In this document: positions 45,032 through 63,095 of the stretch, piece by piece | Numbering within the stretch: position 1 is the stretch's first letter | Layout of the letters: every line of letters begins with the position of its first letter | Source of the DNA: Meiothermus sp. | GTDB taxonomy: Bacteria; Deinococcota; Deinococci; Deinococcales; Thermaceae | Assembly: GCF_026004055.1 (NCBI RefSeq) | Contig: NZ_BPIJ01000001.1 | Location: forward strand, 1,240,001-1,304,000 | Direction: 5' to 3' | Length of the DNA: 64,000 nt | Notes under the pieces: model-generated | The model's database searches: none | Told to the model about the DNA's origin: nothing | The model's input: the letters and a program-made list of their open reading frames with translations, nothing else | Translations under genes and position numbers: made by a program

Positions 45032-45432
45032 GTCTGAGCCTCCACGCTGAGCACGCTCTTGGAGAACCGTTTGAAGTAGACCCAGGCATCCAGCACGCGG
45101 CGGGACATGTGCATGTATTCGGCAGCTGGGGCTTTTTGTATTTTATTCATCAGCGCGCCAACGTCGGGTTGAGACTGGAGTATGGCTGCGACATGCTGTA
45201 GCAAAAGATCGTGTGCTCTAGGTAAACCTTTCTCGTCGCCTTTCTTTGCGTAGCTGAATGCTAGAGCTTGACAAAGCCCAGCCGTGCGTACCATTACAGG
45301 AAATTCCTGGCACAAAGACTGATAACGGCCTTTGGTTCCGGCTCTGCTGTTGTCCTCAATTGTTTGCTCAATCTCGCTCACCAGTCTGAGAGCGAGTGCC
45401 ATATCTTCCTGCGCTCGAGTACGCACCCTCAT
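45028..45432 (-). CDS. cmr5: CRISPR type III-B small subunit Cmr5
   Basis: The 134-residue all-helical protein fits Cmr5, which lines the inner filament of the Cmr complex and contacts target RNA. Matching elements are RTRAQEDMALALRLVSEIE at the N-terminus, SLCQEFPVMVRTAGLCQALAFSYAK, and MHMSRRVLDAWVYFKRFSKSV at the end. It is coupled by 4-nt overlaps to cmr4 and cmr6. Confidence 0.92.
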   Translation of the reverse strand: MRVRTRAQEDMALALRLVSEIEQTIEDNSRAGTKGRYQSLCQEFPVMVRTAGLCQALAFSYAKKGDEKGLPRAHDLLLQHVAAILQSQPDVGALMNKIQKAPAAEYMHMSRRVLDAWVYFKRFSKSVLSVEAQT

Positions 45433-46289
45433 TGTGACCCTCCCAGCCTACGCAAAAGCCCCCGCCCCACACTGGCCTGGCCGCCAAGCTGGAGGTAGGG
45501 CCGGTTAAGCTCCTCGAAGCCGCTTTTGCCGATGGCGAAACATGAAAAGACTGTTTCGGCAGGGATAGCCTCCTCGTACCAAGGGCCTTCTTCCACCGTT
45601 TTTTGCGCGGGGTTGAGCTGTACGCGAGCAATGATCTCGAGGCCCATCTCGCAGAAATAGCTGAACACGTCGTTGGAAACCAGGGCGAAGCGCCTTTGGA
45701 AATAGGCCGCCTCAGGGTCAAAGACCATCTGGCCGAGCTCCTGGATCAGCGCCTCGGCCCCCTCTCGCTGCGCGGTGAGGTCGATGTCCTCGAGGATCAC
45801 CTGACCGTTATGCACAATCTCAGTCTCTTGCGCCAGCAGGGCCTCGGTTTGCTGGGGGGTGGGGATGGGCGATTGCAGGCCGGGAAGCCCCAGGGCCTTT
45901 AGGTCGCGATTAAGGCGTTCAAGCACCAGCGGACAGGTGATGAAGGCGAAAGTGCCCGCATACGAACGCACCGGCAAAAAGAGCACCCTTGCGTCGGTAA
46001 GTGTGAGTTCGGCGGCCTGGCTGATGTCTTCCTCCTCCCCAGAATCCTTTTTCTTCTTCCTCCCGGCAAATCCAAAAACCTTTCTTGCAGCCAAGGCAGC
46101 CTCACTTTCGTCCTCCGCATCCATACCACGCCCGTCGCGCAGCACCCCCTTGAGGCTACTGGCCGGTATCACCGGGAAGCCCGTAGCCGCCTCGCGGGCC
46201 ACCGGAAGGTCAATCACGCTGCTAGAGTCCTGCCCCGTGCCCGGGTGCACGGGCGTAAGGGCCTGCCAGAAAATCAGTTTTGCTTGCAT
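45429..46289 (-). CDS. cmr4: CRISPR type III-B backbone RAMP nuclease Cmr4
   Basis: Cmr4 forms the backbone and cuts target RNA every six nucleotides. The protein (286 residues from the ATG at 46289) has LTPVHPGTGQDSSSVIDLPVAREAATGFPVIPASSLKG, where D27 is at the place of the catalytic Asp, and the glycine-rich LGGQASVGRGLLRRL near the end. A Lys-rich low-complexity insert (GRKKKKDSGEEED) occurs near residue 76. It starts 2 bp after cmr3. Confidence 0.94.
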   Translation of the reverse strand: MQAKLIFWQALTPVHPGTGQDSSSVIDLPVAREAATGFPVIPASSLKGVLRDGRGMDAEDESEAALAARKVFGFAGRKKKKDSGEEEDISQAAELTLTDARVLFLPVRSYAGTFAFITCPLVLERLNRDLKALGLPGLQSPIPTPQQTEALLAQETEIVHNGQVILEDIDLTAQREGAEALIQELGQMVFDPEAAYFQRRFALVSNDVFSYFCEMGLEIIARVQLNPAQKTVEEGPWYEEAIPAETVFSCFAIGKSGFEELNRPYLQLGGQASVGRGLLRRLGGSQ

Positions 46290-46291
46290 TA

Positions 46292-47431
46292 TTACCACAC
46301 TCCCCACAGCGCAAGGCCAAAGCCATCCTTGCGGTCTTGTTCGTTGTCGCTCACGGGCCTAAGCCAGCTTTCCAAGAGGTCGGCGGGGTTGCCATCCTCT
46401 ACCTCAAAGAAGTACACGCTGCCCGCCGGCACCATCCAGCGCACCGCCTTGGGCCGGTTTTGCCGCAGGTTCCAGCCGCTCACCGGTTCGCGCCGGCCCA
46501 CGGCTGCCGATACCAGTTTTAGCTTCACCTTGCTCAGGCCGCGCGGCAGGTGGAGCTCGCTCGAGCCCGACTTCTCAATCCAGCCGGGCTTCCAGCCTTG
46601 CTCAAAAAGCGCCGGGGTGGCCAGCACCAGCCGCACCTTAGCGCCCTTGCCCAGGCCGGCAAAGTGCTTTTTGATGGACTCCGGGCAGTCGAACCAGTAT
46701 TTCGAAAGACTCTCCTTCACCTTCACCGCCACCGGGCGCCGTTCACCCCCCAGGTGGCCGATGGGGGCTGGGTTTTCACCGTCGGGCAGCGAAAGCCGCA
46801 CCCGCAGGCTGGCAGGCCGGTAGTCCTCTGGGCTTTTTCCCATCTCCAAGGGCCGGTAGGCTACGCTAAAGAGCTGCCCTTCCCGGGCCTTGCCCTTTTG
46901 CGGGTCTATCGCCACGTGCACCCGGGTCTCGGTGGGCAGGCCCTGGATTTTCTCGGGCACGAAGGTCTCACCCAGGAGCCAGCGCTCCATGTCCTGCGCC
47001 GTCCAGAAGTTGTAGCCGCTCTCGGGTTTGACGTCTTGCGTAACCTGAAGGGGCTGTACACCCTCCGGCAGGTCGCAGCCCGCACCCTTCGGCTCCAGTG
47101 GGATGAAGGGGTGGAGCTTCATCACGTTGGGGTTGCCCCCAGCATCCCGATAAATCACCGCGTCACGTGGGGCAGGGAGCAGAATTTCGCTGCCGCGGGC
47201 CAAAAGAGGCCCACAAATCTGTAGGCCGTGAAGGTTCTCAAGCTGCTCTTGGTCAAAGCCTTTGCCCTTGGCCAGGCCGATCTGGGTGCGTACAAAGCCG
47301 GCTACCGTGCTGGGGAGGGGTAAGGGCAGGCTGCGGGCAGCGGTCTCGCTGCCGTCGGCGGCGCTGAAGGGCCGGCCATCGCGGAAGAGCAGGGGGCTTA
47401 GGGCGTGGATTTCAAGCACCCGTTCCGGCAT
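46292..47431 (-). CDS. cmr3: CRISPR type III-B RAMP protein Cmr3
   Basis: Cmr3 binds Cas10 and the 5' tag of the crRNA. The 379-residue protein opens ALSPLLFRDGRPFSAADGSETAARSLPLPLPSTVAGFVR, the family fingerprint, and contains TETRVHVAIDPQKGKAREGQLFSV and the C-terminal KDGFGLALWG. AAGGAGG lies 6 nt before the ATG. It overlaps cmr2 by 20 nt. Confidence 0.94.
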   Translation of the reverse strand: MPERVLEIHALSPLLFRDGRPFSAADGSETAARSLPLPLPSTVAGFVRTQIGLAKGKGFDQEQLENLHGLQICGPLLARGSEILLPAPRDAVIYRDAGGNPNVMKLHPFIPLEPKGAGCDLPEGVQPLQVTQDVKPESGYNFWTAQDMERWLLGETFVPEKIQGLPTETRVHVAIDPQKGKAREGQLFSVAYRPLEMGKSPEDYRPASLRVRLSLPDGENPAPIGHLGGERRPVAVKVKESLSKYWFDCPESIKKHFAGLGKGAKVRLVLATPALFEQGWKPGWIEKSGSSELHLPRGLSKVKLKLVSAAVGRREPVSGWNLRQNRPKAVRWMVPAGSVYFFEVEDGNPADLLESWLRPVSDNEQDRKDGFGLALWGVW

Positions 47432-48896
47432 GGGCTTCCTCCTTTATGCCGCTCAGGAAGCGGGCGATGATGAGCTGCTCCACAAAGGTCAGCAGTTCTT
47501 TGCGGTAGGTAGGCGTGTCGCTGGTGGGTGGGGGAATTTTCAGGTCGCGGGCTTCCTTGCGGGCCAAGACCCGTTGAGCCTCCTTGTAGAGGTAGTCGGC
47601 CCGCATATCGTCTTGCCACTCCAGCACCAACTTATGTAGCTCGTGGGCTAGGCCGCGGGTAATCTTGCGGTTTTGGTAGGCCTCGAGGAGTTCGTCCCAA
47701 GATAGCTCGTCCCAGCGCTGAACCACCGTTATCGGCGAGCCGCCCCGGGTGTGGAGGGCTACTGCCAGGGCATTGCGCCCTCCGTTTTTGGCGGCCTTTT
47801 CAGCGGCTCGAGCCCGCTCCAGGGAAAGCGAAAGCGGCTCCCGATAGTGCACAATGGCTATTCCCGCAGAGAGCGTCCCCTTCACCTGGTGCCGGAACGC
47901 TTCAGAAAGCTCCTTAGCGCATGCCACCGCCCGGTTCACCGGCAAAAAGGCCAACACATCGTCGCCGCCGGAGTAGACCATGAAGCCGCGGTACTTGGGA
48001 ACGATGGCCCGGGCTTTTTGGGCAAACCCGTCTAGGCTTTTGGAAAGCTGGCGGTGGGCCTCGGGGTCGTCCTGGCGGCTGATAAGCTCGCCCATGCGGT
48101 CGCCATCGGCTACCAGGATGGCCAAGTAGGGCTGGGGCTCCTGAATGTGGTCGTCGTCCTCGCCGTAGCGCTCATCGGGCTCCGCTTCCGGTTTCCAGGA
48201 GCGCCTGGCCATGGTGCGGGTGTCCACCACCTTGTCCGACTTTAGCGCCCCGTAGCAGCGCTTGAGCAGGGAGACAGCATCCAAATACTCGGTAGGCTTG
48301 ATGCGCAAGGGCCGGTAAGTACCTTCCTTTAGTTCGATGTTGGCCTCGCTCCAGTTGCGCGGGTCTATGACGGCAGCTCGAGCGGGATCCAGGACCGACT
48401 TGGGCACGCCATCGTCTTGCTGATGGGTAGGGCCAAAGTCGCGTAGCGCCTTACGCCCGGCCAATAGGCGCTCCACCGCCAGGCGGGCCTTGGGGTATTC
48501 ACTTTCTTTCACCAGGGGAACCCAGGCAGCGTAGAACTCGAGGAAGTGGTCTAGCTGCTCTTTGGCCCTGGCTTGGTCTATCTGACTCCGGTACTCCTGG
48601 GGCAGCTTGCCGATGGTGTCTTTCCAGAGCTGGTGCAGCTTTTCCTGAACCGCCTTTTTCGCGCCTTCAGCCAACCCCTTGGGGTCGCCCTCTGCCTGGG
48701 CCAGAATCTTGTTGGCCCCGTCGGCATCCTTGTCCGCGGGAAAGATGAGCTCGGCATCCTTGGAGGCCAGATGCTGCGCGGCTACCTTACTCAACTCCTG
48801 CAAAGTCTGCGACCCCGCGTACAGGTCAGCCGTGCGGCGCGCAGCGGCGATGAAGTCCTGCACGGGGCCGATGGAGATGGAGAGGAGGTAGCTCAT
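47412..48896 (-). CDS. cmr2: Cas10 (Cmr2) with GGDD cyclase motif and no HD domain
   Basis: Cas10 is the large subunit of the Cmr complex. The 494-residue protein begins directly at the first palm element (SISIGPVQDFIAAARRTADLYAGS). In HD-bearing Cmr2 proteins this motif is preceded by roughly 200 residues of HD nuclease. So the HD domain is absent rather than mutated. The cyclase palm is intact: LVADGDRMGELI at about 261 and VYSGGDDVLAF, with G310-G-D-D313. The protein should make cyclic oligoadenylates on target binding but should lack the DNase. The zinc-finger cysteines seen in some Cmr2 are also missing. Confidence 0.94.
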   Translation of the reverse strand: MSYLLSISIGPVQDFIAAARRTADLYAGSQTLQELSKVAAQHLASKDAELIFPADKDADGANKILAQAEGDPKGLAEGAKKAVQEKLHQLWKDTIGKLPQEYRSQIDQARAKEQLDHFLEFYAAWVPLVKESEYPKARLAVERLLAGRKALRDFGPTHQQDDGVPKSVLDPARAAVIDPRNWSEANIELKEGTYRPLRIKPTEYLDAVSLLKRCYGALKSDKVVDTRTMARRSWKPEAEPDERYGEDDDHIQEPQPYLAILVADGDRMGELISRQDDPEAHRQLSKSLDGFAQKARAIVPKYRGFMVYSGGDDVLAFLPVNRAVACAKELSEAFRHQVKGTLSAGIAIVHYREPLSLSLERARAAEKAAKNGGRNALAVALHTRGGSPITVVQRWDELSWDELLEAYQNRKITRGLAHELHKLVLEWQDDMRADYLYKEAQRVLARKEARDLKIPPPTSDTPTYRKELLTFVEQLIIARFLSGIKEEAHAGTGA

Positions 48897-50221
48897 AGGC
48901 GCACCTCCTTGTAACCCTCGGACTTCACAAACTCCACCAAAGCTTCTCGGATTGTCTTGGAGCCAAATTGCCCGAGTGGAGGAATCATTCCCCGCTGCTC
49001 AGGAGGAAGGTTTACGAGGGAACCTGTTACCTGTTGTATTTCCTCTCCAAATCTTAAAGTCAAGTTGCCAGCGTGCCAAACATTCGGAGAATCCAGAATC
49101 GCAATCAAGGGTTGGTAGCCATTTTCTGCTACTATGACCTTTGTAATAACTGGAGAGGCAAACCGAGTACCTAACTTAGAATTAGGCTGCGAATCAGGTG
49201 CATAGTTGGCCTCCAGGATAAAATCCTCGTCCTGAGGACCTTCTTCCTGGAAGTGAAAAACAATGGGCAGGCCCAAGTCGGCTCTAGGAAATCCCCTTAC
49301 CGGGTGCCCTGGCTTATGCTTCCAACCCACATTCGGAAACCACTCGCGAATAGTGTCCGGCTCTGGCCACCTCGACCGACCGAGTTTTGCAGGGTTCTTT
49401 GGATCAGAACCTGGGTTTCTAGCAAAATTCTTGCCTTGTCGGAATTTCTTATAGGTTTCTACCGCATGTTTCCACGCTTTGATAGCTGATTCTTTTGGTG
49501 TTCCCACAAGGCACACGATTGGGGCTCTTGTAAGCAGGCTATTTTCCCGATGGACCACTACCGGTTTGAGGACGTCCTGTAGTCTAGGTAAAGACCCCTC
49601 TATTAGCTCGAGGCTTCCGCAGCCCCTTCTGGTGCGGGCACCTATCCCTCCAAATTGCACCCACATCGCTACAGCCAACTCAACATCAGACTTAACCTCG
49701 TTCGGGAATGAGAGATGGAGGGTAAAGCTTACGCTTTCTTCCTTGAAACATTTGGATGGCGGTTCAACAACGGTGATCTCCCTAGTTTTCTTGTCCCTTC
49801 GAGCCTTTCCTTGAAAAGGAAACAACGCATACCCAGGGTAATCACCGAAATACGGGTAGGTCTTTAGTTCCGTTCCTCCACCTTTGCGTGGGTGGTGGTA
49901 AGTACAACAAGGGATTGGGTTTGACGCTGCCGCCTCCAGTATCCTTATGGAAACTTTGCCGGGCACGCTATCACTTCCCCAAATCTCAACTTCATGTCCA
50001 AATAAATCCTGGGCATTCGCGTACTGCGCCCCCGCCGTAGCCCGCCACCAAAACCGCAGGTGCCCCCGCACGCTCGCCGCCCGCACCGGGTTGGCCGGGT
50101 CTACCTCGCGGGGGTTGGCGCTCCCCCCAAACATGGGCGTAATGGTGCGGAGCTTTAGGATCCAGGTGGTCAGCTCGGGCTTTTTGAGCTCCGGGGGTGG
50201 AAGCGGAACCGCTCTAGGCAT
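48893..50221 (-). CDS. cmr1: CRISPR type III-B RAMP protein Cmr1
   Basis: Cmr1 lies at the end of the Cmr complex and helps capture target RNA. The 442-residue protein shows [38 protein letters not shown], which is the conserved start, and [20 protein letters not shown]. Its ATG lies inside the end of cas7 (8-nt overlap), which ties the type III-B cassette to the type I-C genes. GC content falls in the middle of the gene (about 48950-50000). Confidence 0.93.
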
Positions 50222-51197
50222 GGGCGCCTCCCATCCAGGTGTCGAAGCGAGCTTCGTCCCAGGCGTCTAGCTCGAGCATCCGCACGCCCTTGGGCAGCTT
50301 GGCGGGGTCGGCCTTCACCTCGTAGTCGGCAAAACGGCGTGGGGGCTTGCCCTCGTCCAAAAGCCGGGCCGAGACCACCTGGCCCAAGTCCAGCAGGCGG
50401 TGCGCCGGGGCGCAGCCCAGCATGGCCTGGCGCTTGTTCTGCTCGGCGTTATTGGGGTCGGTGCCCACGTGCTGGAAGAGGTAGAGCCGGCGCGTTGCCA
50501 TATGCCCCTTGCTGGCGCTGCGGTCGTGCTCATACATGTTCAAAAGGGCCTCCACCAATAGCTTCAGGTCGGCCTCGCTGAAGCCGGTGCCCTGGGCCAG
50601 GTGGGCGCTGATGAAGCCCTTGGCCAGGTAAAGGCCGTAGGGCACCTGGCTCTTGCGGCCCATGGTGCGGAGCTTGTCCTCGGGCTGTTCTTTTTCCCAC
50701 TTCAGGTAGTCTTCCAGGGTCTTGGCGTTCTTGATGTCCTCGGCCACCGCCCCCCGGGTAATGCTGAATTCGGCGGGGAAGATGGGGTCTAGGCTACGGG
50801 CAAAGGTAAGCTGCACCGGCCCCCGCACCTGGCCGGCGTTGGCCCCGGTGCTCATCACCGCGCCAAAGGTGCGCACGTCAAAAAACTGCTCGCACATCCA
50901 GCGGCGGGCGGCTTCTACCTTGTCCTTGGTTTTGCTGCCAGTAAAGCCGCCGGTGCGCTCGTGGGCCTCGAAGATGGGCCGGTTGAGGTTGGTGCCGTGT
51001 TGCACAAAAATGGGAGCCCCGGCAGCCTGGGCGTAATTGCGCAGGCGCCGCTTGAGGGCCACGTCGCTCACCAGGCCGTGGCCGTCCTCGGGGTCGATGC
51101 GGGGGGCGTTGCCCGAGTCGGGGTCGCCGTTGGGGTTGCCGTCTTGCACATCAAAGAAAAGCAGGAACTCGTAGCGGTTTTGGATGGGCTGGGACAT
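50214..51197 (-). CDS. cas7: Type I-C Cascade backbone protein Cas7 (Csd2)
   Basis: Cas7c polymerises along the crRNA spacer. The 327-residue protein begins with [45 protein letters not shown], the Csd2 signature, and contains [26 protein letters not shown] and [14 protein letters not shown]. It follows cas8c with a 24-bp gap holding GGAG and is followed by cmr1 with an 8-nt overlap, whereas in a standard I-C operon cas4 would come next. Confidence 0.96.
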
Positions 51198-51221: not shown

Positions 51222-53093
51222 CTAGCCCTGGAAAAGGGGGCCTTGGGCGGTTTCGGGGCCGGAGGGTTTGTCGTCCTTTTTGACGCGGCTGGCTGCGAGC
51301 TGCTGGTAGTAGCCCAGGGCAAAAAGGCTTTGCTCTTCCAAGCTCAGGGTGCGGGGCAGGGTGGGGCCCAGGGCCTTCCAGACCTCGGCAAGCTGGGTGT
51401 GGAACCAGTAGGCTAGGCCGGGCGAGTCCTTGGCCATTTTGCTCAGGTGGTGCTGCGAGAGCCGCGTGAGGCGGCCCAGCACCATGGCCGGGGTGCTGCT
51501 GGCCGCGCCGTAGTAGCGTTGCACCACCCCGGCGTTGATATCGGACTCGGCGGAGGCCTCCTGAATCTGGGCCAGAAGGCACATCAAGCGGCCACAGTGG
51601 TAGGCCGGGCTGGGGTGGTTAGGGTCTAGCGCCATACCTATCGTTCCTCCTTTGCGGATGTGGTAAGCCTTCAAAAGCCCCATGCGGGCGTAGATGCGCC
51701 CCAGGGCGGCGGCGTCGGCTTTTTGTGCGCTGAGGGCCTCGCTAAAGGCCCCGGTCATCACCTCGGCGACGTGGGACTCCATGATGCGAGCCAAAGCCCC
51801 ATAGGGAATGGGCAGGCTGGGGTTCAAGGCCGCGCGCCAGAGGGGGACTTGCAGGGTTTTGATGGGCTTGAGGTAATCGTCGAAGTTTTGCTCGGGGGTC
51901 TTGGGGCGTTGGAGGTTCAGGAAGAGGCGGTTCAGGCCCGGCAGGCCGGCGGCCCGGTCACCGCTTCTGCGCACGATGGCCAGGTGCTCGAACCAGGTCT
52001 GTACGGCCGTGATGAACTCTTCCAGCGAACCCGTCTGCCAGTCGCGCACCATCACCCGCCCCGATGCCGGGCTCAGGGCTGCGGCGAAGAAGCGGGCGCC
52101 CTGCAGGCTGGGCGGGGCCTCGCCGGTTTTGAGGGCCTGGAGCACCCGGCGGGCGCGCTCCAAGGCCTGCAGTTCCTCGGCCTCGCCGCTGCTGGGGGCG
52201 AAGAGGTCGCGGAAGAAGTCGTCCTCCTCGGGGATGGCCCGGTCGTACCAGACCACCACCTTCATCTCGCCCAGGGTCTGGGCCCCTTCTAAAAGCGCGT
52301 CCAGCCCGGCCCGGTAGGCGGTGGCGGCCAGCTCCTCTACGGCGGCGTTCTCGCCTTGGGAGAAGCCATAGGACTCGAAGGCATCTTTGTCGTAGGTGAC
52401 CAAAGCGTGCCCGAAGGCGCTGCCGCCCAGCTTGGTGACCTTGGGGTGGGTAGAAGCGGGGGAAACCAGCTCCCCGGTGGCAAACGAGCGCATTCCCCCG
52501 GCGCTCTTTTGCGTTGGGAAGGCCTGGGTGCGGAACTGCCGCCACCAGTCGTGCCAGTCCGGAAAGTCCAGCACGCACCGCTCCTCTACGAAAAACGAGA
52601 CTTTGTCGGTGGGCTTGAGCTTATCGGGGCCTTTTTGCTGGGTCTGGGCCTCGAGCTTCTGCACAAACTGTGCCATCTGCGCTGGGTCGGAGAGGGCCTG
52701 GGCGATGGGCAAAAGCAGGGGCACCTGTTTCGCGGCGAGCTCGATGAGCAACCGGAAGGTCTTCTGCTTTTGCAGGTTTTTGGCCTGCTCCTCGGGGTTT
52801 TTGATGTTCCCGTTCCTATCCCGCTCGGCCAGGCCGAACACCACCGCGCAGGTGTCGGCCAGGAAGTGGGCGGCCTGCTCGGCGGGGTGCCCCATGGCCC
52901 TGAGCGCGTTGGGCATGGCGATCATCTCGGGCTGGGAGAGGTCGGGGGCGGGTTTGGCCTGATTTAGTGGTATGAGCTCGGTGAAGGCCCCCTGAGGGCT
53001 CACCCCCACCAGCCAGCGGATTTCCTTTTGGGTAAAGCCGGGCTCCGTGCCCAGGCCCTTCTGCCGGGCGTACTCCACCAGCGGCGTAAGCAT
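51222..53093 (-). CDS. cas8c: Type I-C Cascade large subunit Cas8c (Csd1)
   Basis: Cas8c recognises the PAM and recruits Cas3. The 623-residue protein matches Csd1: [14 protein letters not shown] at the N-terminus, [62 protein letters not shown], then the small-subunit-like C-terminal third with [26 protein letters not shown]. In I-C an internal start within cas8c can give the small subunit Cas11c; I did not fix its position here. It starts on the stop codon of cas5 (1-nt overlap). Confidence 0.95.
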
Positions 53094-53836
53094 CAGCCCA
53101 CCCCCTTCCGCACCCGCTCGCTTTCGTAGGGGGGCACCTCGAGCACCCCTTCCACCACCTCGGCCTCAAAGAGGCTCACGCTGGGCTTCTCGCCCCTGTC
53201 GGGGCGGAGCGGGGCCCCTGGCCTAGAAAGGTCGAAGACGTCGTAGAGCATCCAGCCGATTTTTTCGCTGTAGGGTACGGGCTTGGCCTCCTCGCCCTCC
53301 ACCAGCCGGAAATACCCGCTAAACTCGCGGCAGCCTAGGTAGGGCTGGTAGATGCACTGCCCGGCCCGGGCCCGGCGCTCAAAGCTGTGCTCGATCTTCT
53401 GGCGCAGGGCGTGGTCTTCGCGGTAGAGCACCGCGTGGGCGGTCAGGCGGTAGCGCACGTCCTTGAGGGCCATGGTCTGGCGCTGGGTACGGCCTTTGGT
53501 GTCCTGGCCGGTGTCGTCTTTGGTGGCATCGGCAAATAGGGGCTCGAAGGTGCTGGGGTTCCTCATCCAGCCCTGGACGTTGCGCAGGCTCACCTTCTCC
53601 TTCACCTCGTTGCGCATCAGGGCGATGTAGCGCACCGGCCGCAGCACCTCGATGCGCTCAATTTGCCAGTACAAGAGGGGTTTTTTGCTTTGGGGATCAA
53701 AGTCTAGGTAGATGGCGTCGAAGATGCCTCGCGCGGCGCTGGGGGTGATGACGGGGTAGCTGAAGCGCTCCACCTTGAACTCGGGCCGGGTAAAGCAGGC
53801 CAGCTCGCCCCAGACTTCCAGGCTAAAACTTCGCAT
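53093..53836 (-). CDS. cas5c: Type I-C crRNA endonuclease Cas5c (Cas5d)
   Basis: In type I-C, Cas5 replaces Cas6 and cuts pre-crRNA at the repeat hairpin. The 247-residue protein starts [45 protein letters not shown], with Y43 in the place of the catalytic tyrosine region, followed by [14 protein letters not shown] and [22 protein letters not shown] is 6 nt before the ATG at 53836. The same processing must supply crRNAs to the Cmr complex because no Cas6 gene is in the window. Confidence 0.94.
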
Positions 53837-53890
53837 GGTTCCTCCTCTCACTTGGGCTGCAACTTATCAAAATGCCGAAGCACGGCCGGT

Positions 53891-56800
53891 TTATATGACC
53901 AACCCCACCCCACACCCCTCCTCCGGCGTGAAGCCCAGCTTGGGGCTATAGAGGGCTTCGTCCGGGCACAAGTACCAGTCCGGGGCCTCGCCCCGCCCGT
54001 AGCGCAGGAAGACGCTCTCGAGGAAGGCGGGCGGCCCTCCTTTGGGCAGGAAGTAGGGCACTGCATAGGGCCGGGCCCGTTGAACCCAGTCGGCGGCGAT
54101 GCCCCGGTCGCGCGCCTCTTGCATAAGGGCCTTGGCCTCGTCGTTGTAGGGCACCACCACGTTCACCGCAGGCGACTCGATGATGCGGTAGCGGCGGGCG
54201 AGCTCGGCGTAGTTTTGGGTCAGGATGAAGCCCTCGATCTCCGGGTCGCTCACACTTTGCAGACCATAGAGGCTCTGGTAGTAGCGGCGGAAGGTATCGG
54301 GGGTGAGCTCGAGCGGCCCTTCGGCCTGCAAGGCCCGGGTGAGCTTGGCGGCCTGGGCGTAGGCTTGGTCGGGGTAGCCCTCGTCCTCAGGTATAAAGAC
54401 CACCAGCTGCCCCTCTTTGCGCAGGCCGTGCCGGTTGACCCGGCCCGCGGTCTGGGCGATGGCCTCCAAGGGCCCCAAGGCCCGGTAGCCCACGGGGAAG
54501 TCGAGCTCCACCCCGGCCTCCACCACCTGGGTGGCAATCAGGCGACAGGGGCGGCCTTCGTCGAGCCGGGTCTGCACCTCCCCCAGCACCTTTAGCCGGT
54601 GGGCCGGGCACAGCGCGGTGGACAGGTGGAAGAGCCCCTCCAGGCCCTGCGCCTCGGCCAGGCGGAAAAGGGCGTGGGCCTGCCGCTTGAGGTTCAGCAC
54701 CACCAGAGCCTGGGGGTCGGCCTCGAGCAGTGTCAGCAGATAGGGGAAGGGGGTGGGGTTCTTGAGCCACCAGTCCACCCCCACCCGCTGGCTCTGCTGA
54801 AAGAGCACCCTGGGCTCAGGGGCTATCTCTACCGGTTGCCAGCCCTGGGGCTCATTTTTCCTTATCTCGGCGTCCAGGGCGTCGAAGGCGGGCTGGGTGG
54901 CGGTAGCAAAGACCACCACCACGCCGTACTTCTCGCCGGCCAGATGCGAGAGGGTTTTGAGGGTGGGCAGGGCCAGGTGGGTGGGGAGGGTCTGCACCTC
55001 GTCGAACAAGAGCACGCTTCCGGCCAGGTTGTGCAGCTTGCGGCAGGCCCCGGGGCGGTTGGCGTGCAGGCTTTCTAAAAGCTGCACATGGGTGGTGAGC
55101 ACAACCGGGGCCTCCCAGTTTTCGCTCAGGAGGCGGCGCTCGAGCTCAGCGACATCCTGCTCGTCCGAAAGCTCCTTACGCAGCGGGCGATAGGCCAGGC
55201 TGTGGTCTTCCAGGATGTAGTGTGGGCCAAAATCGGCGAACAGGGCGCGGTAGATTTTGGCGGTCTGGTCGAGGATGGAAAGGTACGGAAGCACCACCAC
55301 GATGCGCCGTATGCGCGGGTCACGCAGGGCCCGCCTCAGGGCGAAGCGCAGCATGGCCAGGGTCTTGCCAAGCCCGGTGGGGGCGGTGAGGGTAAAAAGG
55401 CGTTCGGGGTGCTTTGCAGCCTCGGCAGCGGCGTCGGAAAGTGCCTTGCGCAAGGCCCGGACTTTTGCGGGAATCCGCTCTTCCCGCTCCAGCTTCTCCA
55501 AATGGGCCTCGAGCCGCTCCAGCGCTTTTTCGGCCTGTAAGGGGGGTGCAGAAGGGCGCACCTCTCCCCGCATGTGCCGCTCGGTGTCCAGGAAGTCGGC
55601 GTCTACCAGGGCCGAGAAGAGCATGCGGGTATCCAACATGGCGGCAGCGCTCTGGGCTATGGGAATTTGCGCTTGGCTAGGGGGCGGTAGCTCCAGGCCA
55701 TCGGCCCGGAAGCGCTCTTTGAGTACAGAAAGGTTGGCCTCGCTCAGGCGCAGCTCGGGTGGAAAGCCCTGGCCGTCCTCCCGGAGCTTCATCTCCTTGA
55801 GGCTCTCCTTGGCCCCACTCTGGAGCCCAATGTGGTGCCCCTGAATGGCCAGCGCCACCTCGGGTAGGCGGTACTCGAACAGCGCTACGTGCGCCCCCGC
55901 CGACCAGTGGTCGAGACCCTTTTCTTTGCCCTCCAGTCGGCGTTGGAAAGGGTCGCCGTACTTGCCCAGGTCGTGCAAAAGCCCGCTCAGGCGCCCCTTC
56001 TCCGACTCCCCAAAGGGGTCGGCTTTTTCTGCGGCCCGCCGGGCGACCTCGGCTGCGTGCTCGCGCATGGGCTGCCAGCGGGCAGGGTCTGGGTGGGTGT
56101 GGGCCCAGTAGGTTTTGGGGGAAGCCAGGCTTTGTACGTCGTACTGCGCCAACAACTGCCGGGCCTCGGCCAGCCAGGCTTGGCGCAGGCTGGGGGGCTC
56201 CAGCACCTCCACCCGGGGCCCCCAGCTTTGGATCCAAGGTAGCAGCTCGAGGGGGAATCCATCGCTGTCGGTGCCTACGGTAATTTCAACGAGAGTGCTG
56301 CCACCCTCAAGCTGCTCCACAATCTGAAGGTTGGGGTAACCCCCCTCGCGGATGCGCTCGCTGGCCTCCGGGCTAAAGCGCAGCCGCACCTTGAGCGGCT
56401 TCTCGCCGCCCACAATGCCCCAGGCCGACGAAAGGTAGGCCGTGGGGTCGAAGTCGTCGGGGATGGTGTAGAAAATGTCCAGCAGGCGCGGGCGCTGGAT
56501 GCGCTCGAGCTTGTAGGTTTTTAGGTTCTCGCTGTAGTGAATGCCCCGGCCATAGAGCCGGTCTTTGCCGATGATGTAGACGGCCATATTGGCCCGCGAG
56601 ACCTCGATGAAGTAGGTCTCGAGTTCTACCCGGATGGTTCGGCTCTGGGGGATGCGGTACTCGAAAGCCACCACCCGGCGAAGGAGCCAGCCCTGGGTAA
56701 GGGTCTCGAGGTTGGCCCCACTCAGGCTGGGGGGCCGCTGGTGCAGGGCCTCGGTGCTCTTCTGGGCGAGGGCCTTGAGGGGCTCGGGTAGGTTCTTGGC

Positions 56801-57139
56801 CAGTTTGCGCAGGGCTTCCTGGTAGGCTTTATTGCTGCCCGGCGCGTGGTGCGCCAGCATCCGCAAAGCGGTAAAGGCCACCACCGTCTCGGTCAGGCTA
56901 AGCCGCTCCACCACCTCGATCTGGTAGGTGCTGCGCAGCGGATCGTGCACAAAGCGCAAACCCAGGCGCTGAGCCAGGGCCAGAACCTCGTTCAGATAGT
57001 TGTGGACGGCCCGCTCCTTGAGCCCCAGCTCGGCCTGAAGCTCGGCAGGCCGCCAGGGCTTCTGCTGCAAAAGCTCCAGCAGCCGCAAGAGGCGCAAAGC
57101 CTTGCTTTGGTGGTGGTTCAGGTCTTCCAGGCCGGACAT
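53891..57139 (-). CDS. cas3: HTH-WYL-WCX regulator fused to Cas3 nuclease-helicase
   Basis: One uninterrupted frame joins a WYL regulator to type I Cas3. Numbering is from ATG 57139. Residues 12-62 are a helix-turn-helix (ELGLKERAVHNYLNEV). Residues 147-217 are a WYL domain (ANMAVYIIGKDR, TYKLERIQ). Residues 247-327 are a WCX domain (LELLPWIQSWGPRVEVLEP). Cas3 then has an HD nuclease (H361, H389-D390, H417, H435-H436), Walker A TAPTGLGKT (585-593), DEVQ (713-716), TAT (746-748) and QTAGRVNRHG. Cas3 degrades DNA recruited by Cascade, while the WYL part probably binds a ligand and DNA. An upstream TTG at 57193 could be the start; neither start has a ribosome binding site. Confidence 0.93.
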   Translation of the reverse strand: MSGLEDLNHHQSKALRLLRLLELLQQKPWRPAELQAELGLKERAVHNYLNEVLALAQRLGLRFVHDPLRSTYQIEVVERLSLTETVVAFTALRMLAHHAPGSNKAYQEALRKLAKNLPEPLKALAQKSTEALHQRPPSLSGANLETLTQGWLLRRVVAFEYRIPQSRTIRVELETYFIEVSRANMAVYIIGKDRLYGRGIHYSENLKTYKLERIQRPRLLDIFYTIPDDFDPTAYLSSAWGIVGGEKPLKVRLRFSPEASERIREGGYPNLQIVEQLEGGSTLVEITVGTDSDGFPLELLPWIQSWGPRVEVLEPPSLRQAWLAEARQLLAQYDVQSLASPKTYWAHTHPDPARWQPMREHAAEVARRAAEKADPFGESEKGRLSGLLHDLGKYGDPFQRRLEGKEKGLDHWSAGAHVALFEYRLPEVALAIQGHHIGLQSGAKESLKEMKLREDGQGFPPELRLSEANLSVLKERFRADGLELPPPSQAQIPIAQSAAAMLDTRMLFSALVDADFLDTERHMRGEVRPSAPPLQAEKALERLEAHLEKLEREERIPAKVRALRKALSDAAAEAAKHPERLFTLTAPTGLGKTLAMLRFALRRALRDPRIRRIVVVLPYLSILDQTAKIYRALFADFGPHYILEDHSLAYRPLRKELSDEQDVAELERRLLSENWEAPVVLTTHVQLLESLHANRPGACRKLHNLAGSVLLFDEVQTLPTHLALPTLKTLSHLAGEKYGVVVVFATATQPAFDALDAEIRKNEPQGWQPVEIAPEPRVLFQQSQRVGVDWWLKNPTPFPYLLTLLEADPQALVVLNLKRQAHALFRLAEAQGLEGLFHLSTALCPAHRLKVLGEVQTRLDEGRPCRLIATQVVEAGVELDFPVGYRALGPLEAIAQTAGRVNRHGLRKEGQLVVFIPEDEGYPDQAYAQAAKLTRALQAEGPLELTPDTFRRYYQSLYGLQSVSDPEIEGFILTQNYAELARRYRIIESPAVNVVVPYNDEAKALMQEARDRGIAADWVQRARPYAVPYFLPKGGPPAFLESVFLRYGRGEAPDWYLCPDEALYSPKLGFTPEEGCGVGLVI

Positions 57140-57209
57140 AAGGTAGGACAAGAACAGCCCAACCTTAGCAGACCCCCGTCCAGCGATCGGCAATTTTTGA
57201 ACAAAATCG

Positions 57210-57232
57210 AATATACGCTCAAGATGCTTGAG
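57210..57232 (-). promoter_or_regulatory. cas operon promoter with candidate WYL operator
   Basis: A TATATT -10 box is at 57215-57210. A perfect palindrome CTCAAG-ATG-CTTGAG (57218-57232) lies right upstream, in the -35 to -10 spacer. The -35 box itself is weak. A protein bound to the palindrome would block RNA polymerase, and the HTH-WYL part of the first gene product is the obvious candidate. Confidence 0.5.
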
Positions 57233-57374
57233 TAGACTAAACTAATATATCGCCGTCCATTCCACGCTGGCGTCCGAAAAGAATCGCCTAAAAGCGCCCT
57301 CCGTACTGCTTAGTGAGGGCCGGGGTGGATATTCTGCAATGCCTGCCCCATCCACAACCCCACCCGGCCTCCCC

Positions 57375-57504
57375 TAATACCGGATTCAAAAAGATACTCT
57401 TCAAAACCAAAAACCCAGAGGCTATCTTTTTGAATCCTAGAGCACTCCCTTCGGTCGGGGTAGTTCGCCACCATTCGGTGACGAACTACCCGAATCTGGT
57501 ATAA
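57375..57504. repeat. Short inverted-repeat element, family B, short copy 4
   Basis: It begins TAATACCGGATTC and ends CGAATCTGGTATAA and is nearly identical to 27927-28056. It lies upstream of the cas promoter. The rest of 57240-57635 has degenerate pieces of family A (GCCTAAAAGCGCCCTCC at about 57288, and TTGCCAGACCCCTAA near 57624) but no gene. Confidence 0.75.
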
Positions 57505-57635: not shown

Positions 57636-59249
57636 CTAAACCACCAGCCACTGCTGCCGCCACTCCTCAATCCAGTCGCTGTAGTAGCCCGGCATAAAGG
57701 TGTGGGCGGGGTCGTCGGCAGGGAAGGGGCTGTGTTTGACCTCGAGGTCGCACAGCCACTCGGCCCGGGGATCGAGGGTATACACCCCCCCTTGGTTTTG
57801 CACGCTTTGCTGCCAACCCAGGGTCTGGCGTAGCTTTTCGATGTTCTGCCACAAAGCCTTGCGGGGGTTCTTGCCGCGGCTGGCCAGCCGATCCAGAAGC
57901 AGCTCGGTGCTGGCCTGCCTGCCGTTGACCAGCAAAAACACCAGGAGCTCGCCGGCCTTGCTCACTGCTGGTAGGGGCACCCGGCGCCCATTAACCCGCA
58001 CCTCGAGCTTCCCAAAAGGCTTCACCTCCACCCGGAAGGCTTGCTGCTGTGGCTCCAGGCCCACCATCCGGGCCAGCTCGGGAAAACAGCCCAGTTCCTC
58101 GCGGATCCAGTAATCCTGCTGCGATAGGTTCTTCAACACGGCCAGGGCTTGCGGAATGTGGCCCTCGCGGCGCAGCAGCTCGGCCTCGAGCACCCGCAGC
58201 ACTACCTGCCCCCGCTCGCCCAACTGTCCGGCCTGCCAGTAGGCCTGTAGCCGCGGCAGGGTATGGGCCGCGCTCTCGGTCTCGCCCAGCATCAGGCGGG
58301 CCGCGGCCAGGTCGGCCTCGAGCCAGGCTACCTGGGGGTTTATCTCCTGGGCCTGCAACAGCTTAGCCAGGGCCTCTTCTACCCGCCCCATCAGCCGCAG
58401 GGTATGGCCCAAACCCCACAGGGCCCGCTGCTTGTCGTCGGGCTCGCTTGCCGCTTTGAGGGCCTGCTGGTAGAGGTGCAAGGCCCGCTCCCATTCCCCC
58501 AGACTGCGCCGCAGCAACGCCAGGCTCGAGAGGGCCTGGGCGTGGAAGGCCCTGGCAGCCTCTTTTTTGGAGATGCGGAGGGCTTCCAACAGGTGGTGTT
58601 CGGCTTTGGGGGGGTCTTGGTGTAGCAGAACCAGGCCCAAGCTGTTGTGGGCCCAGGCCAGGTAGTAGGGGTCATTTTCCAGATAAGCCAGTGCCTCGGC
58701 CCAGCTCGAGCGCGCCGCCCCCTTCTGACCTTGGTGGTCGAAGAACCACCCCTTGTCCAGGAGCATCCGCCCCAGCGCCGCTCCTCGCAGATAGGGCCGG
58801 GCCTGCTCCAGTACCTGGGGCCACTCGGGCCGGTTCAGCCAGAACAGGGCCTCGCCTTTGCTGCGGAAGTAGATGCTGTGGTCGAGGTCGGTGTGGGGCT
58901 GGGCGGTTTCGAGTAGTTGCAGGGCGGCTTCGTACTGCTGCTGCCGCACCAAGGCCCAGGCCAGGTAGACCCGCAGGGCCGGGTCGGGCTCGCGCTGCTC
59001 GAACCACTCGAGGATGCCCTCCGGCTGCCGGGCCCGGCACAGGGCTTGTACGTACACCCGCTCGAGGCCCGGATGCAAGCCCAGGTAGGGCCGAAAGTGT
59101 TGCAAGTGTTGTACAAACTGCTGAATCTGGCTATAGGTCTGGCAAGCCTCGAACCCCTCCTGCAGCAGCTTGGTGGCTGCTTCGATGTGTTGGTGCAGAA
59201 GCAAGCCCTCCAGGCTCAGCCAAACTTCGCCAGATAACCTTACTGCCAC
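57636..59249 (-). CDS. TPR-repeat protein with C-terminal winged-helix DNA-binding domain
   Basis: The 537-residue protein is built of TPR-like helical pairs from about residue 20 to 390 (for example YLAWAHNSLGLVLLHQDPPKAEHHLLEAL and LGEWERALHLYQQALKAA). It ends with an OmpR/SARP-like winged helix at about 405-480 (VKPFGKLEVRVNGRRVPL, KAGELLVFLLVNGRQASTELLLDRL, ALWQNIEKLRQTLGW). In SARP regulators the DNA-binding part comes first; here the order is reversed. The GTG start lies 6 nt after TAAGAT (59261-59256), so it is leaderless. It sits between cas3 and array 2, so a role in regulating the island is possible but unproved. Confidence 0.75.
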   Translation of the reverse strand: MAVRLSGEVWLSLEGLLLHQHIEAATKLLQEGFEACQTYSQIQQFVQHLQHFRPYLGLHPGLERVYVQALCRARQPEGILEWFEQREPDPALRVYLAWALVRQQQYEAALQLLETAQPHTDLDHSIYFRSKGEALFWLNRPEWPQVLEQARPYLRGAALGRMLLDKGWFFDHQGQKGAARSSWAEALAYLENDPYYLAWAHNSLGLVLLHQDPPKAEHHLLEALRISKKEAARAFHAQALSSLALLRRSLGEWERALHLYQQALKAASEPDDKQRALWGLGHTLRLMGRVEEALAKLLQAQEINPQVAWLEADLAAARLMLGETESAAHTLPRLQAYWQAGQLGERGQVVLRVLEAELLRREGHIPQALAVLKNLSQQDYWIREELGCFPELARMVGLEPQQQAFRVEVKPFGKLEVRVNGRRVPLPAVSKAGELLVFLLVNGRQASTELLLDRLASRGKNPRKALWQNIEKLRQTLGWQQSVQNQGGVYTLDPRAEWLCDLEVKHSPFPADDPAHTFMPGYYSDWIEEWRQQWLVV

Positions 59250-59332: not shown

Positions 59333-59494
59333 CTAGCCACCGGTGCCCAGCTTGGGTTTGTCACCATCGGCAAAAAGCGGGCCTCCCCCCTGCACCGGCC
59401 CTACCAGCAGCGTCGCCACCAGCAGCGCACCCAGCACCCAAACCAGCAACTTAGAGCCGAACCAACCGATTGTGGGAAGAAAGTTCTTTTTCAC
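59333..59494 (-). CDS. Small exported or membrane peptide, 53 residues
   Basis: A GTG codon at 59494 has GGAGGGG directly upstream and opens a 53-codon frame ending at TAG (59335-59333). The product starts MKKNFLPTIGWFGSK, has a hydrophobic segment LLVWVLGALLVATLLVGP and a short polar tail ending KLGTGG. This looks like a membrane peptide or a signal peptide with a small mature part. An intrinsic terminator follows at 59293-59317. It lies next to the leader of array 2. I know of no family match; the case rests on the start signal, the hydrophobic profile and the terminator. Confidence 0.5.
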   Translation of the reverse strand: MKKNFLPTIGWFGSKLLVWVLGALLVATLLVGPVQGGGPLFADGDKPKLGTGG

Positions 59495-59559: not shown

Positions 59560-59742
59560 CTGCGCGAACCCCAAGCAAGTGCCAAAACCCAGGGGGGTTC
59601 GCGCAAGCCGAGAAATCGGCTAGGGGACATTGAAAACTCGTTTTCCCCTTACCTTCCCCCACCCTGCGTCGGAAGCCTTTTTGGGGGGGTTCGCGCAAAC
59701 GACCCCTTGAACCCCGTCCAGCACGCGCGCTAGAATGGGGCC
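59560..59742 (+). promoter_or_regulatory. Leader of CRISPR array 2 with pre-crRNA promoter
   Basis: The 183-bp segment is almost the exact reverse complement of the leader at 40502-40684. The promoter TTGAAC (59707-59712), 18 bp, TAGAAT (59731-59736) ends 6 nt before the first repeat at 59743. Inverted GCGCGAACCCC / GGGGTTCGCGC arms occur upstream, at 59562-59601, with another GGGGTTCGCGC at about 59686-59696. Confidence 0.85.
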
Positions 59743-62700
59743 GTTGCACTCGGGCGAAAGCTCGAGTGAGGATTGAAACTTGCTGTCGCGCTCGAGGAGC
59801 GGCGACGATAGCACGTTGCACTCGGGCGAAAGCTCGAGTGAGGATTGAAACCCGACGTTGGCGCCGGCGCTGGGATATAGCGCCAGCACGTTGCACTCGG
59901 GCGAAAGCTCGAGTGAGGATTGAAACTTGCGTTTGGGTATAGTATGGGGTAGTATGACATCGGTTGCACTCGGGCGAAAGCTCGAGTGAGGATTGAAACT
60001 TTGGGTCAGCATTGATAAACCATATGGCCAGCATCGTTGCACTCGGGCGAAAGCTCGAGTGAGGATTGAAACTTTTAGCCGCAGCGCGCTCGAGCCCAGG
60101 CCGAGCTGGTTGCACTCGGGCGAAAGCTCGAGTGAGGATTGAAACCGTCAAAAACCGTGCCGAGGCCGAGTCGGCGACATGGGTTGCACTCGGGCGAAAG
60201 CTCGAGTGAGGATTGAAACTGGCGCCGCGCAGCGGCGGGAGAGCTGATTGTAGATGGGTTGCACTCGGGCGAAAGCTCGAGTGAGGATTGAAACCAGAGA
60301 CCACGCATCCATCGGTGAAATACGCACCGTTGCACTCGGGCGAAAGCTCGAGTGAGGATTGAAACAGGTCGCCAAGCGGGGAACAACGCAAAGAGCGCAA
60401 GGTTGCACTCGGGCGAAAGCTCGAGTGAGGATTGAAACCTGGTGCGCCATAATGCGCACTGACGCGAGCGACAACGTTGCACTCGGGCGAAAGCTCGAGT
60501 GAGGATTGAAACCCTGACCACCGACGGCAGCGGTATCCTCTCCTGGACGTTGCACTCGGGCGAAAGCTCGAGTGAGGATTGAAACGCTGATGGCGACGGC
60601 CATCGCTATTAATGGCGTGCTGCGTTGCACTCGGGCGAAAGCTCGAGTGAGGATTGAAACGCGCAATCATTGGAGGTGTGCTGTGGATTACACGTTGCAC
60701 TCGGGCGAAAGCTCGAGTGAGGATTGAAACACACGCACGCTGGAGGTGCTGTGCCAGTATGTGGACCGTTGCACTCGGGCGAAAGCTCGAGTGAGGATTG
60801 AAACACCGGCCATCACCACCACGCTACCCGGAGCCAGCTGGGTTGCACTCGGGCGAAAGCTCGAGTGAGGATTGAAACGGCGCGTGGATGCGCCACACGA
60901 CTGGCAAAATTTGTTGCACTCGGGCGAAAGCTCGAGTGAGGATTGAAACTTAGAATCAAGCCGGCCAAATAGCCTACTTGTGGTGTTGCACTCGGGCGAA
61001 AGCTCGAGTGAGGATTGAAACTACCGAGGTCATCTAGTCATACCTCTAAGGCGTCGGGTTGCACTCGGGCGAAAGCTCGAGTGAGGATTGAAACCACCAT
61101 ATCCTCATACGTACCCGGCTTAGCCAAGTTGCACTCGGGCGAAAGCTCGAGTGAGGATTGAAACTTGGTGGCGGAAACAACAGAAGCGGCCTAGATAGCC
61201 GTTGCACTCGGGCGAAAGCTCGAGTGAGGATTGAAACATCTACGTTACAGGCGATTCGTTCGAGCGGTGCGAGGTTGCACTCGGGCGAAAGCTCGAGTGA
61301 GGATTGAAACAGCGAACCTACACTTTGGCAATCATCCTAGGGGTTGGTTGCACTCGGGCGAAAGCTCGAGTGAGGATTGAAACCTGGCGGCATGCTCCGA
61401 ACCCCCTGCGTTGCACTCGGGCGAAAGCTCGAGTGAGGATTGAAACCCAGGCGCGAGGGTCCGCCCTGTTGCACTCGGGCGAAAGCTCGAGTGAGGATTG
61501 AAACATGAGTCTGGGGGCTTTACGTGGCTCGAGGAGATCTGGTTGCACTCGGGCGAAAGCTCGAGTGAGGATTGAAACACGAGATACGCTCTGCAGTACC
61601 ATTCACGCATAATGTCGGTTGCACTCGGGCGAAAGCTCGAGTGAGGATTGAAACTGCAAAAGGCTATTTGGATGCGCAGTTGGCCGCATGGTTGCACTCG
61701 GGCGAAAGCTCGAGTGAGGATTGAAACGGGAAAGACCACGTGTGTGTCTTTGCCGACGCGGACGTTGCACTCGGGCGAAAGCTCGAGTGAGGATTGAAAC
61801 AGCCAGGGCTGCCACTTCGCGCACCTTTTCGGGGTGTTGCACTCGGGCGAAAGCTCGAGTGAGGATTGAAACGGCTGGCTTTGACCTAAAGCACCTTCAA
61901 TTTACTGTTGCACTCGGGCGAAAGCTCGAGTGAGGATTGAAACCACAGCGGGAACGAAAATTACCGCGGGGTAGCCCAAGTTGCACTCGGGCGAAAGCTC
62001 GAGTGAGGATTGAAACATCGCACAACCGCGCCACGACACAATCACAAGGGCATGTTGCACTCGGGCGAAAGCTCGAGTGAGGATTGAAACCTGTGTACAG
62101 CGTGTAATATGCAGATTTAATGTCGGTTGCACTCGGGCGAAAGCTCGAGTGAGGATTGAAACCAGCGGCCTGGGCCACCATGTCGCTTTTACCCACCCCG
62201 TTGCACTCGGGCGAAAGCTCGAGTGAGGATTGAAACGGCCCATATCTCGATCCCCATAGGGTCACGCAATAGTTGCACTCGGGCGAAAGCTCGAGTGAGG
62301 ATTGAAACCCCGACAGACTAAATAAGTTTTCAGGCCAGCCAACGGGTTGCACTCGGGCGAAAGCTCGAGTGAGGATTGAAACCCAGGCGGGCCTTCACGA
62401 GGGCTTCAACGCGGGCCTGGGTTGCACTCGGGCGAAAGCTCGAGTGAGGATTGAAACTTTGAGGACATCTGCAGCTTTGTTCCAGTTCATATTGTTGCAC
62501 TCGGGCGAAAGCTCGAGTGAGGATTGAAACAGTGCGGACTCCGGTGTGCTTACCAGCAGGCATAGCGTTGCACTCGGGCGAAAGCTCGAGTGAGGATTGA
62601 AACGTTACGCGGATGAACCTTGCGGACTTCCCGGTAGGTTGCACTCGGGCGAAAGCTCGAGTGAGGATTGAAACCTACTTCCTCGATCGTGTCTTCGGGG

Positions 62701-63095
62701 TACTCATGGTTGCACTCGGGCGAAAGCTCGAGTGAGGATTGAAACTGGGCGGAACATCCCGCCCAACACGAGACGCGCATGTTGCACTCGGGCGAAAGCT
62801 CGAGTGAGGATTGAAACTCTGGAGTGTTTTATAAAGTCTCGTTTCTTGGAAAAGTTGCACTCGGGCGAAAGCTCGAGTGAGGATTGAAACGGCACAGACG
62901 CCACTTCTCCACGCGTCTGCTCGCCTGTTGCACTCGGGCGAAAGCTCGAGTGAGGATTGAAACTACGACATAGACGCTAATGAGTACCCCCCCCTGGTGG
63001 GTTGCACTCGGGCGAAAGCTCGAGTGAGGATTGAAACTTATTGCCAAGCTCAACCTAACTACATCCCCCGTTGCACTCGGGCGAAAGCTCGAGTG
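59743..63095 (+). CRISPR. CRISPR array 2, 47 repeats / 46 spacers
   Basis: The same 37-bp repeat as array 1 occurs in the + orientation, starting GTTGCACTCGGGCGAAAGC and ending GAGGATTGAAAC. I located 46 full copies from 59743 to 63037 and a truncated last copy at 63070-63095 (26 bp kept). Each repeat folds into a 9-bp stem with a GAAA loop. Spacers are 32-39 bp except two neighbours at 61384-61409 (26 bp) and 61447-61467 (21 bp). Transcription is rightward from the leader promoter. No spacer duplicated within this array was noticed. Confidence 0.99.

Follow-up and report, generated by a model that had tools for sequence, protein, structure and literature searches.

Why would a CRISPR (clustered regularly interspaced short palindromic repeats) interference nuclease carry a complete transcription regulator on its own polypeptide chain? 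The question is raised by a 64,000-nucleotide stretch of a Meiothermus sp. genome (assembly GCF_026004055.1, contig NZ_BPIJ01000001.1, positions 1,240,001 to 1,304,000; hereafter the window), in which a gene at 53891..57139 of the minus strand encodes a 1082-residue protein combining helix-turn-helix (HTH), WYL and WCX domains with Cas3. An earlier note, made from the sequence of the window, had claimed that the regulator and a Cas3 with complete catalytic motifs share a single frame. Our analysis upheld both claims and placed the fusion in a context that the note had overlooked: a gene for a tetratricopeptide repeat (TPR) protein with a winged HTH (wHTH), a small peptide gene, a direct repeat in the promoter, an unfused state in relatives, an exchange seam within WCX and Cas3 variants that retain WCX alone. 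We consider the chances evenly balanced that these parts form a two-input switch, in which a peptide-gated TPR activator would act at the promoter repeats, the WYL half would act at a dyad further upstream, and Cas3 would carry the regulator of its own operon.

A regulator and Cas3 in one reading frame

The fusion gene was found to be one uninterrupted frame, with no stops and no frameshifts (the genes, domains and promoter elements described below likewise lie on the minus strand, unless stated otherwise). The full-length frame recurred in 16 genomes, which excludes a local sequencing error and the frameshift that the earlier note had allowed for, and shows that the fusion is not a one-off. 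Alignments of the orthologues begin at the ATG at 57139; an alternative TTG start at 57193 was rejected, since it falls within a conserved promoter repeat. No conserved ATG was present near the junction of the two halves among the orthologues. The GTG codons 310 and 312 are conserved, yet they lie inside a highly conserved RVEVLEP block, and an internal start separating the halves is unsupported by the alignments. Both halves are under purifying selection, with ratios of nonsynonymous to synonymous substitution rates (dN/dS) of about 0.05-0.33 across the HTH, WYL, WCX and Cas3 segments.

The order of the domains is wHTH, three-helix bundle, WYL and WCX, followed by a complete type I-C Cas3. 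In the AlphaFold2 model of the protein (predicted local distance difference test, pLDDT, 73.6), the wHTH occupied residues 9-75 (56915..57115), the helical bundle residues 82-152 (56684..56896), the WYL beta domain residues 155-223 and WCX residues 249-333. The Sm-like WYL domain lies at 56420..56683 and the WCX domain at 56144..56404 (Pfam E 7e-16, over the cut-off). When the model was searched with Foldseek, the regulator half, including the wHTH, matched DriD (E 1.7e-12; DriD-single-stranded DNA (ssDNA)-DNA complex) and PafBC. The domain order is the same as in these two proteins, the borders closely match those of DriD (wHTH 1-70, bundle 79-133, WYL 134-245, WCX 246-327; PMC12340889) and the helical bundle takes the position of the three-helix bundle in DriD. 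DriD dimerises through its WCX domain (PMC12340889). In PafBC, two arginines of the WYL domain, three residues apart (R211/R214), are essential for ssDNA binding (PMC11804915); in the fused and standalone WYL family the basic pair K210-x-x-R213 was invariant at this place and aligned with R-x-x-R of DriD. A pseudo-palindrome upstream of the gene is a further shared trait. DriD and PafBC differ in having no enzyme fusion, and in the fusion the first arginine is a lysine and the WYL motif reads VYV. The link to nucleic-acid sensing drawn in the earlier note is consistent with this likeness to ssDNA-sensing WYL activators.

The Cas3 half (53891..56110) comprises the HD nuclease, the superfamily 2 (SF2) helicase and the C-terminal domain, all over the Pfam cut-offs (HD, 2.7e-6; DEAD, 2.2e-9; Cas3 C-terminal domain, 4e-11). 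Type I-C Cas3 ranked first in the Foldseek search with the fusion model, and VIA-align, whose matches covered the Cas3 half only, gave a Z of 32.3 to type I-C Cas3 8g9u across 661 residues. The catalytic motifs were invariant in the 12 aligned proteins: H361, H389-D390, H411 and H435-H436, Walker A T588-T593, DEVQ 713-716, TAT 746-748 and, in motif VI, Q896, A898-R900 and N902-R903. With its intact HD and SF2 motifs and its neighbours cas5c, cas8c and cas7c, this half was assigned by sequence to type I-C.

Origin, exchange and partial loss of the fusion

The survey comprised 22 genomes from the three genera with the fusion (Meiothermus, Allomeiothermus and Calidithermus) and 111 genomes of Deinococcota. 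The full fusion was present in 16 of the 22; four carried a Cas3 with WCX only, in one the gene ran off the end of a contig, and the last had no such cas3. The carriers include Meiothermus hypogaeus, M. taiwanensis, M. rufus, Calidithermus roseus, C. chliarophilus and Allomeiothermus silvanus, in which the fusion (WP_013159711.1) is annotated just as Cas3. Among the 111 genomes of Deinococcota no additional WYL-Cas3 fusion was found beyond the three genera, and a limited scan outside the phylum with two regulator motifs returned one Chloroflexi WYL protein with no I-C Cas3 match adjoining. Two apparent additions were rejected: open frames of 1233-1264 residues suggesting I-E WYL-Cas3 fusions (genomes G016 and G007) resolved into WYL and cas3 in separate frames, and a Thermus thermophilus HC11 match seemingly with WCX was spurious, its frame crossing CRISPR repeats.

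The unfused state was observed in metagenome-assembled genomes of Deinococcales, where the TPR, WYL and I-C cas3 genes are separate and adjacent, with WYL directly before cas3. In Deinococcus radiophilus, WYL and the I-C cas3 are separate genes with a 4-nt overlap. The I-E cas3 in Thermaceae is likewise preceded by standalone WYL genes, which share 45-50% identity with the regulator half. The separate, neighbouring regulator and cas3 genes elsewhere in Deinococcota indicate that the fusion joined adjacent genes of an operon; as read from these comparisons, its origin is the joining of two co-transcribed neighbours. The fused regulator halves form a single clade in the tree (support 99/97).

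The two halves did not remain together throughout. Between C. roseus and C. chliarophilus, DNA identity was mostly 65-97% over the TPR gene and HTH-WYL, lower in the intergenic gap, and dropped at nt 900-1030 of the frame, beyond which it was about 40%. The reverse pattern was found between A. silvanus and another genome (G018), with 35-65% identity followed by mostly 87-97% from about nt 950 through cas7. These opposite shifts inside WCX indicate that the cas half was swapped at a WCX seam, the control half staying with its host genus. By these alignments, the halves have different histories, the regulator half tracking the host genus and the Cas3 half having been exchanged. In the four genomes that lost HTH-WYL and retained WCX on Cas3, the start of the protein coincides with the first WCX strand or slightly precedes it. 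These proteins are scattered over the Cas3 tree, one of them beside a full-length relative, and this scatter points to at least two losses, probably three. Cas3 without any regulator domain exists as well (locus L035).

Further WYL genes were noted in these genomes. No WCX match in the window genome other than the fusion exceeds the Pfam cut-off, and a remnant of a second WYL gene (its WCX part, with an internal stop) lies on contig C2 (952781-953035), ~2 kb from a frame weakly resembling I-E Cas3 and ~9 kb from a cas1 match; by sequence, this region would be a decayed or divergent CRISPR locus. Meiothermus and its relatives also possess a more distant set of standalone HTH-WYL-WCX proteins (33-36% identical), with no Cas3 match beside them.

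A TPR regulator gene and a peptide gene precede the fusion

Upstream of the fusion, the window encodes a 537-residue TPR-wHTH regulator (57636..59249; TPR superhelix about 13-395, wHTH about 406-500) and, before it, a peptide of 53 residues (59333..59494) with a membrane- or secretion-type segment followed by ADGDKPKLGTGG at the C-terminus. The cassette thus runs from the peptide gene through the TPR-wHTH gene and HTH-WYL-WCX-Cas3 to the remaining I-C and III-B genes. The gap between the TPR and fusion genes is 496 bp (about 107-260 bp in relatives), partly because of a ~130-bp repeat element at 57365-57500, of which the genome holds ~40 copies. The TPR gene was present in 21 of the 22 genomes, and weak matches were obtained in the other two genera of the family (Thermus-like, with I-E WYL genes). 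The model of the TPR protein (pLDDT 90.5) retrieved NprR, Rap and AimR among its fold matches (Z 16.5-18.8), and the Pfam AimR profile matched weakly in 5 of 15 TPR proteins.

The peptides of this family have 38-64 residues, a hydrophobic N-terminal segment of membrane or secreted type, and a C-terminus of the form GDxPKxGTGG or PKCCxGG. The C-terminal pattern matched 28 of 17,967 open reading frame ends, every one of them the peptide. In close pairs its dN/dS was about 0.26-0.45, which supports its translation. The gene adjoins TPR genes not only at I-C and I-E loci but also at a third locus away from the cas genes; wherever the region ahead of a TPR gene was examined, the peptide gene nearly always lay immediately before it, and versions with variant C-termini stand beside TPR genes in other families. 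At three I-E loci (L038, L039 and L076) the peptide gene (..DGGPKCCGGG) directly precedes the WYL gene with no TPR gene there; these genomes have a single TPR gene, located at the I-C locus and likewise accompanied by a PKCC-type peptide.

A TPR receptor gene with an adjoining small gene for a candidate propeptide is the arrangement of RRNPP pairs (Rap, NprR, AimR), which the cassette resembles in the hydrophobic N-terminal segment and conserved C-terminus of the small gene product and in the neighbouring TPR regulator; the superhelix matches these receptors and general TPR superhelices equally well. The cassette differs in belonging to Deinococcota, in its C-terminal wHTH of predicted OmpR type and in its link to CRISPR; a published survey of RRNPP systems covered Firmicutes and viruses (PMC10075063).

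Two promoter elements at conserved positions

The promoter of the fusion gene contains an extended -10-like element, TGCTAAGGT (57162..57170), a direct repeat, TTGCCG-N5-TGGACG (57177..57193), and a dyad, CTCAAGCATCTTGAG (57218..57232), 39 bp upstream of the direct repeat. The consensus TGGAYG-N5-TGGAYG was matched at 10-12 of 12 positions before all 16 fused genes, about 43-64 bp ahead of the start. It was also found before most I-E WYL genes, and adjoins a -10 resembling TGCTAAGGT. No such repeat was present at unrelated WYL loci or at the Thermus-like loci examined, where the I-C cas3 has no WCX and no TPR gene. The TPR protein and the repeat both occur in the three genera, and the other two genera combine weak TPR matches with the lack of the repeat at the Thermus-like loci examined; the repeat therefore follows the TPR protein. 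The I-C and I-E repeats were alike where a genome has a single TPR gene (permutation p 0.002, uncorrected for ancestry), but not where it has two. The predicted OmpR-like wHTH and 11-bp direct repeats close to the -10 recall SARP-type activators, whose sites are similar direct repeats that overlap the -35 region (PMC10972967). SARP regulators have a BTAD domain after the OmpR-type wHTH; here the TPR domain precedes the wHTH and the repeats are TGGAYG, and the comparison is one of likeness only.

A whole-genome scan for the direct repeat alone gave a count not above the reversed-pattern control, so matches away from WYL genes were not called a regulon; a scan for the repeat at fixed spacing to TA gave no match. 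One perfect copy in the window genome, TGGACGATCGCTGGACG (contig C1, 730545), is separated by no more than about 40 bp from the start of a 629-residue frame and, by its sequence, is possibly a further target or a chance match.

The dyad corresponds to the palindrome that the earlier note had named as a candidate binding site. Its position has been kept in most relatives: the best dyad, CTCAA-N5-TTGAG, stood 39-40 bp upstream of the repeat at 10 of 15 fused, 9 of 14 I-E and 3 of 4 WCX-only loci. The sequence is less conserved and often weakly significant at single loci, and we therefore take position as the stronger evidence. A strict palindrome was rejected, the element being conserved solely as a positioned pseudo-dyad.

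Proposed regulation and alternative explanations

In the proposed switch, the peptide would be exported or released, would re-enter the cell or be retained, and would bind the TPR superhelix. The peptide-bound TPR-wHTH protein would then bind the TGGAYG repeats beside the -10 and activate transcription in the manner of OmpR- and SARP-type activators. The dyad, another 39-40 bp upstream, would be bound by a dimer of the HTH-WYL-WCX half, whose likely ligand is ssDNA, as in DriD and PafBC. The ssDNA made in Cas3 interference would thereby feed back on the expression of cas3, Cascade and III-B. With the WYL half at the dyad, Cas3 would regulate its own operon, and the autoregulation suggested by the earlier note would fit the conserved placement of the dyad above a second promoter element. 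Activation is favoured over repression as the sign of this feedback, by analogy with DriD and PafBC.

The steps differ in strength. That the TPR protein acts at the repeats is probable, and the balance tips, somewhat less firmly, towards the peptide being its signal. Whether the fused protein binds the dyad we regard as an even question, and the case for ssDNA as the ligand of the WYL half falls just short of even. More tentative still is the reading of the whole as an RRNPP-like pheromone system of Deinococcota wired to the I-C/III-B and I-E promoters, with an ssDNA-sensing WYL regulator fused to Cas3, so that a density signal and the DNA product of Cas3 would jointly set expression.

Several observations weigh against the proposed switch. 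On the side of the TPR protein, Rap, NprR and AimR tied in the fold search with the general superhelices LGN, OGT and MalT, and its wHTH was weak by Pfam (Trans_reg_C in 4 of 15 members, best 3e-4). Several I-E loci have the peptide without an adjacent TPR gene. The direct repeat of the window itself matches the consensus at 10 of 12 positions, and the permutation test of repeat similarity carries no correction for ancestry. The dyad varies in sequence, is individually significant in just 6 of 15 fused loci, and is weakly present at WCX-only loci too. In the fusion, the HTH scored under the Pfam cut-off, WYL reached 18.7 bits against a cut-off of 21.8, and the VYV motif is degenerate.

Of the alternatives, the one that survives best concerns the small upstream gene, which might encode no signal for the TPR protein but a membrane microprotein (e.g., an envelope stress peptide or a small toxin) and be simply a neighbour of the TPR gene. 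The hydrophobic N-terminal segment and the I-E loci with no TPR gene would suit such a protein. We nevertheless consider it unlikely, as the peptide moves with the TPR gene to the third locus, lies directly before nearly every TPR gene examined, and is conserved at the extreme C-terminus, as RRNPP propeptides are.

A second alternative, to which we give a slightly lower probability, is that the WYL half acts on the enzyme instead of on transcription, gripping the ssDNA that leaves the helicase or dimerising Cas3 via WCX. It is the main rival because of the precedent of thermophile Pif1 helicases, in which a WYL domain on the helicase chain binds ssDNA and aids unwinding (PMC9964779), albeit with WYL at the C-terminus of an SF1 helicase and no HTH. 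The invariance of K210/R213 and the retention of the dimer domain WCX in WCX-only lineages that arose independently at least twice, probably three times, would agree with such a role. Against it, the HTH is likewise strongly constrained, and both WCX-only and domain-free Cas3 exist. The standalone WYL regulators of Thermaceae, separate proteins in I-E operons, share the promoter elements of the fusion where the TPR protein occurs, which points to transcription.

Equally improbable is a near-neutral fusion, in which the two halves, left on one chain or parted by proteolysis, would each function on their own without coupling. The adjacent separate genes of relatives, the independent swapping of the halves at the seam and the repeated loss of HTH-WYL are what such a fusion would lead one to expect. 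On the other side, the fusion has persisted in 16 genomes of three genera, and exchange of the cas operon recreated it at the same seam instead of splitting it. An assembly or frameshift error that fused two genes can be dismissed, given 16 assemblies with the full-length frame and purifying selection on both halves.

Relation to described systems

The earlier note knew of no described system with this architecture. That claim fell to one sentence of Makarova et al. 2014, according to which some type I systems have a Cas3 with a fused WYL domain (PMC4012209); the architecture is therefore not new. Those fusions resemble the present one in placing WYL, a predicted ligand sensor, on an HD and SF2 helicase Cas3 of type I. 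Meiothermus and Thermus go unmentioned in the available part of that text, and its WYL-Cas3 sentence makes no reference to WCX, a TPR-wHTH or peptide gene, elements of the promoter, a seam or forms with WCX only. Neither a dedicated study of a WYL-Cas3 fusion nor a CRISPR-linked peptide-TPR pair in Deinococcota was found in the literature searched, which left bioRxiv preprints and most subscription papers outside. The wider context, i.e., the peptide and TPR-wHTH cassette with its promoter elements, looks new.

If the proposed wiring is true, a CRISPR nuclease shares its chain with a transcription factor that possibly senses ssDNA of the kind made by that nuclease, forming a direct feedback loop in one protein, and CRISPR would be under the control of peptide signalling in a phylum, and with a type of envelope, for which the literature searched contains no report of RRNPP-like systems. 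The WCX seam and the WCX-only Cas3 proteins also show that cas modules were exchanged under a resident, host-matched control half.

Organisation of the operon and array

The genes downstream of the fusion are cas5c (53093..53851), cas8c (51222..53093) and cas7c (50214..51197), each over the cut-off of curated profiles, then a type III-B module of cmr1, cmr2/cas10 (494 residues), cmr3, cmr4, cmr5 and cmr6 (43994..50221), and a TM1812-family (CARF) gene, cas4 and cas1 of I-C type (41049..44003). With the I-C genes followed by the III-B module, cas4 and cas1, the fusion gene heads a joint I-C/III-B operon. A CRISPR array of 46-47 repeats (GTTGCACTCGGGCGAAAGCTCGAGTGAGGATTGAAAC) occupies 59728..63040 on the plus strand. 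The Cas10/Cmr2 protein (47412-48896) is below the usual size and matched Cmr2_N and palm2.

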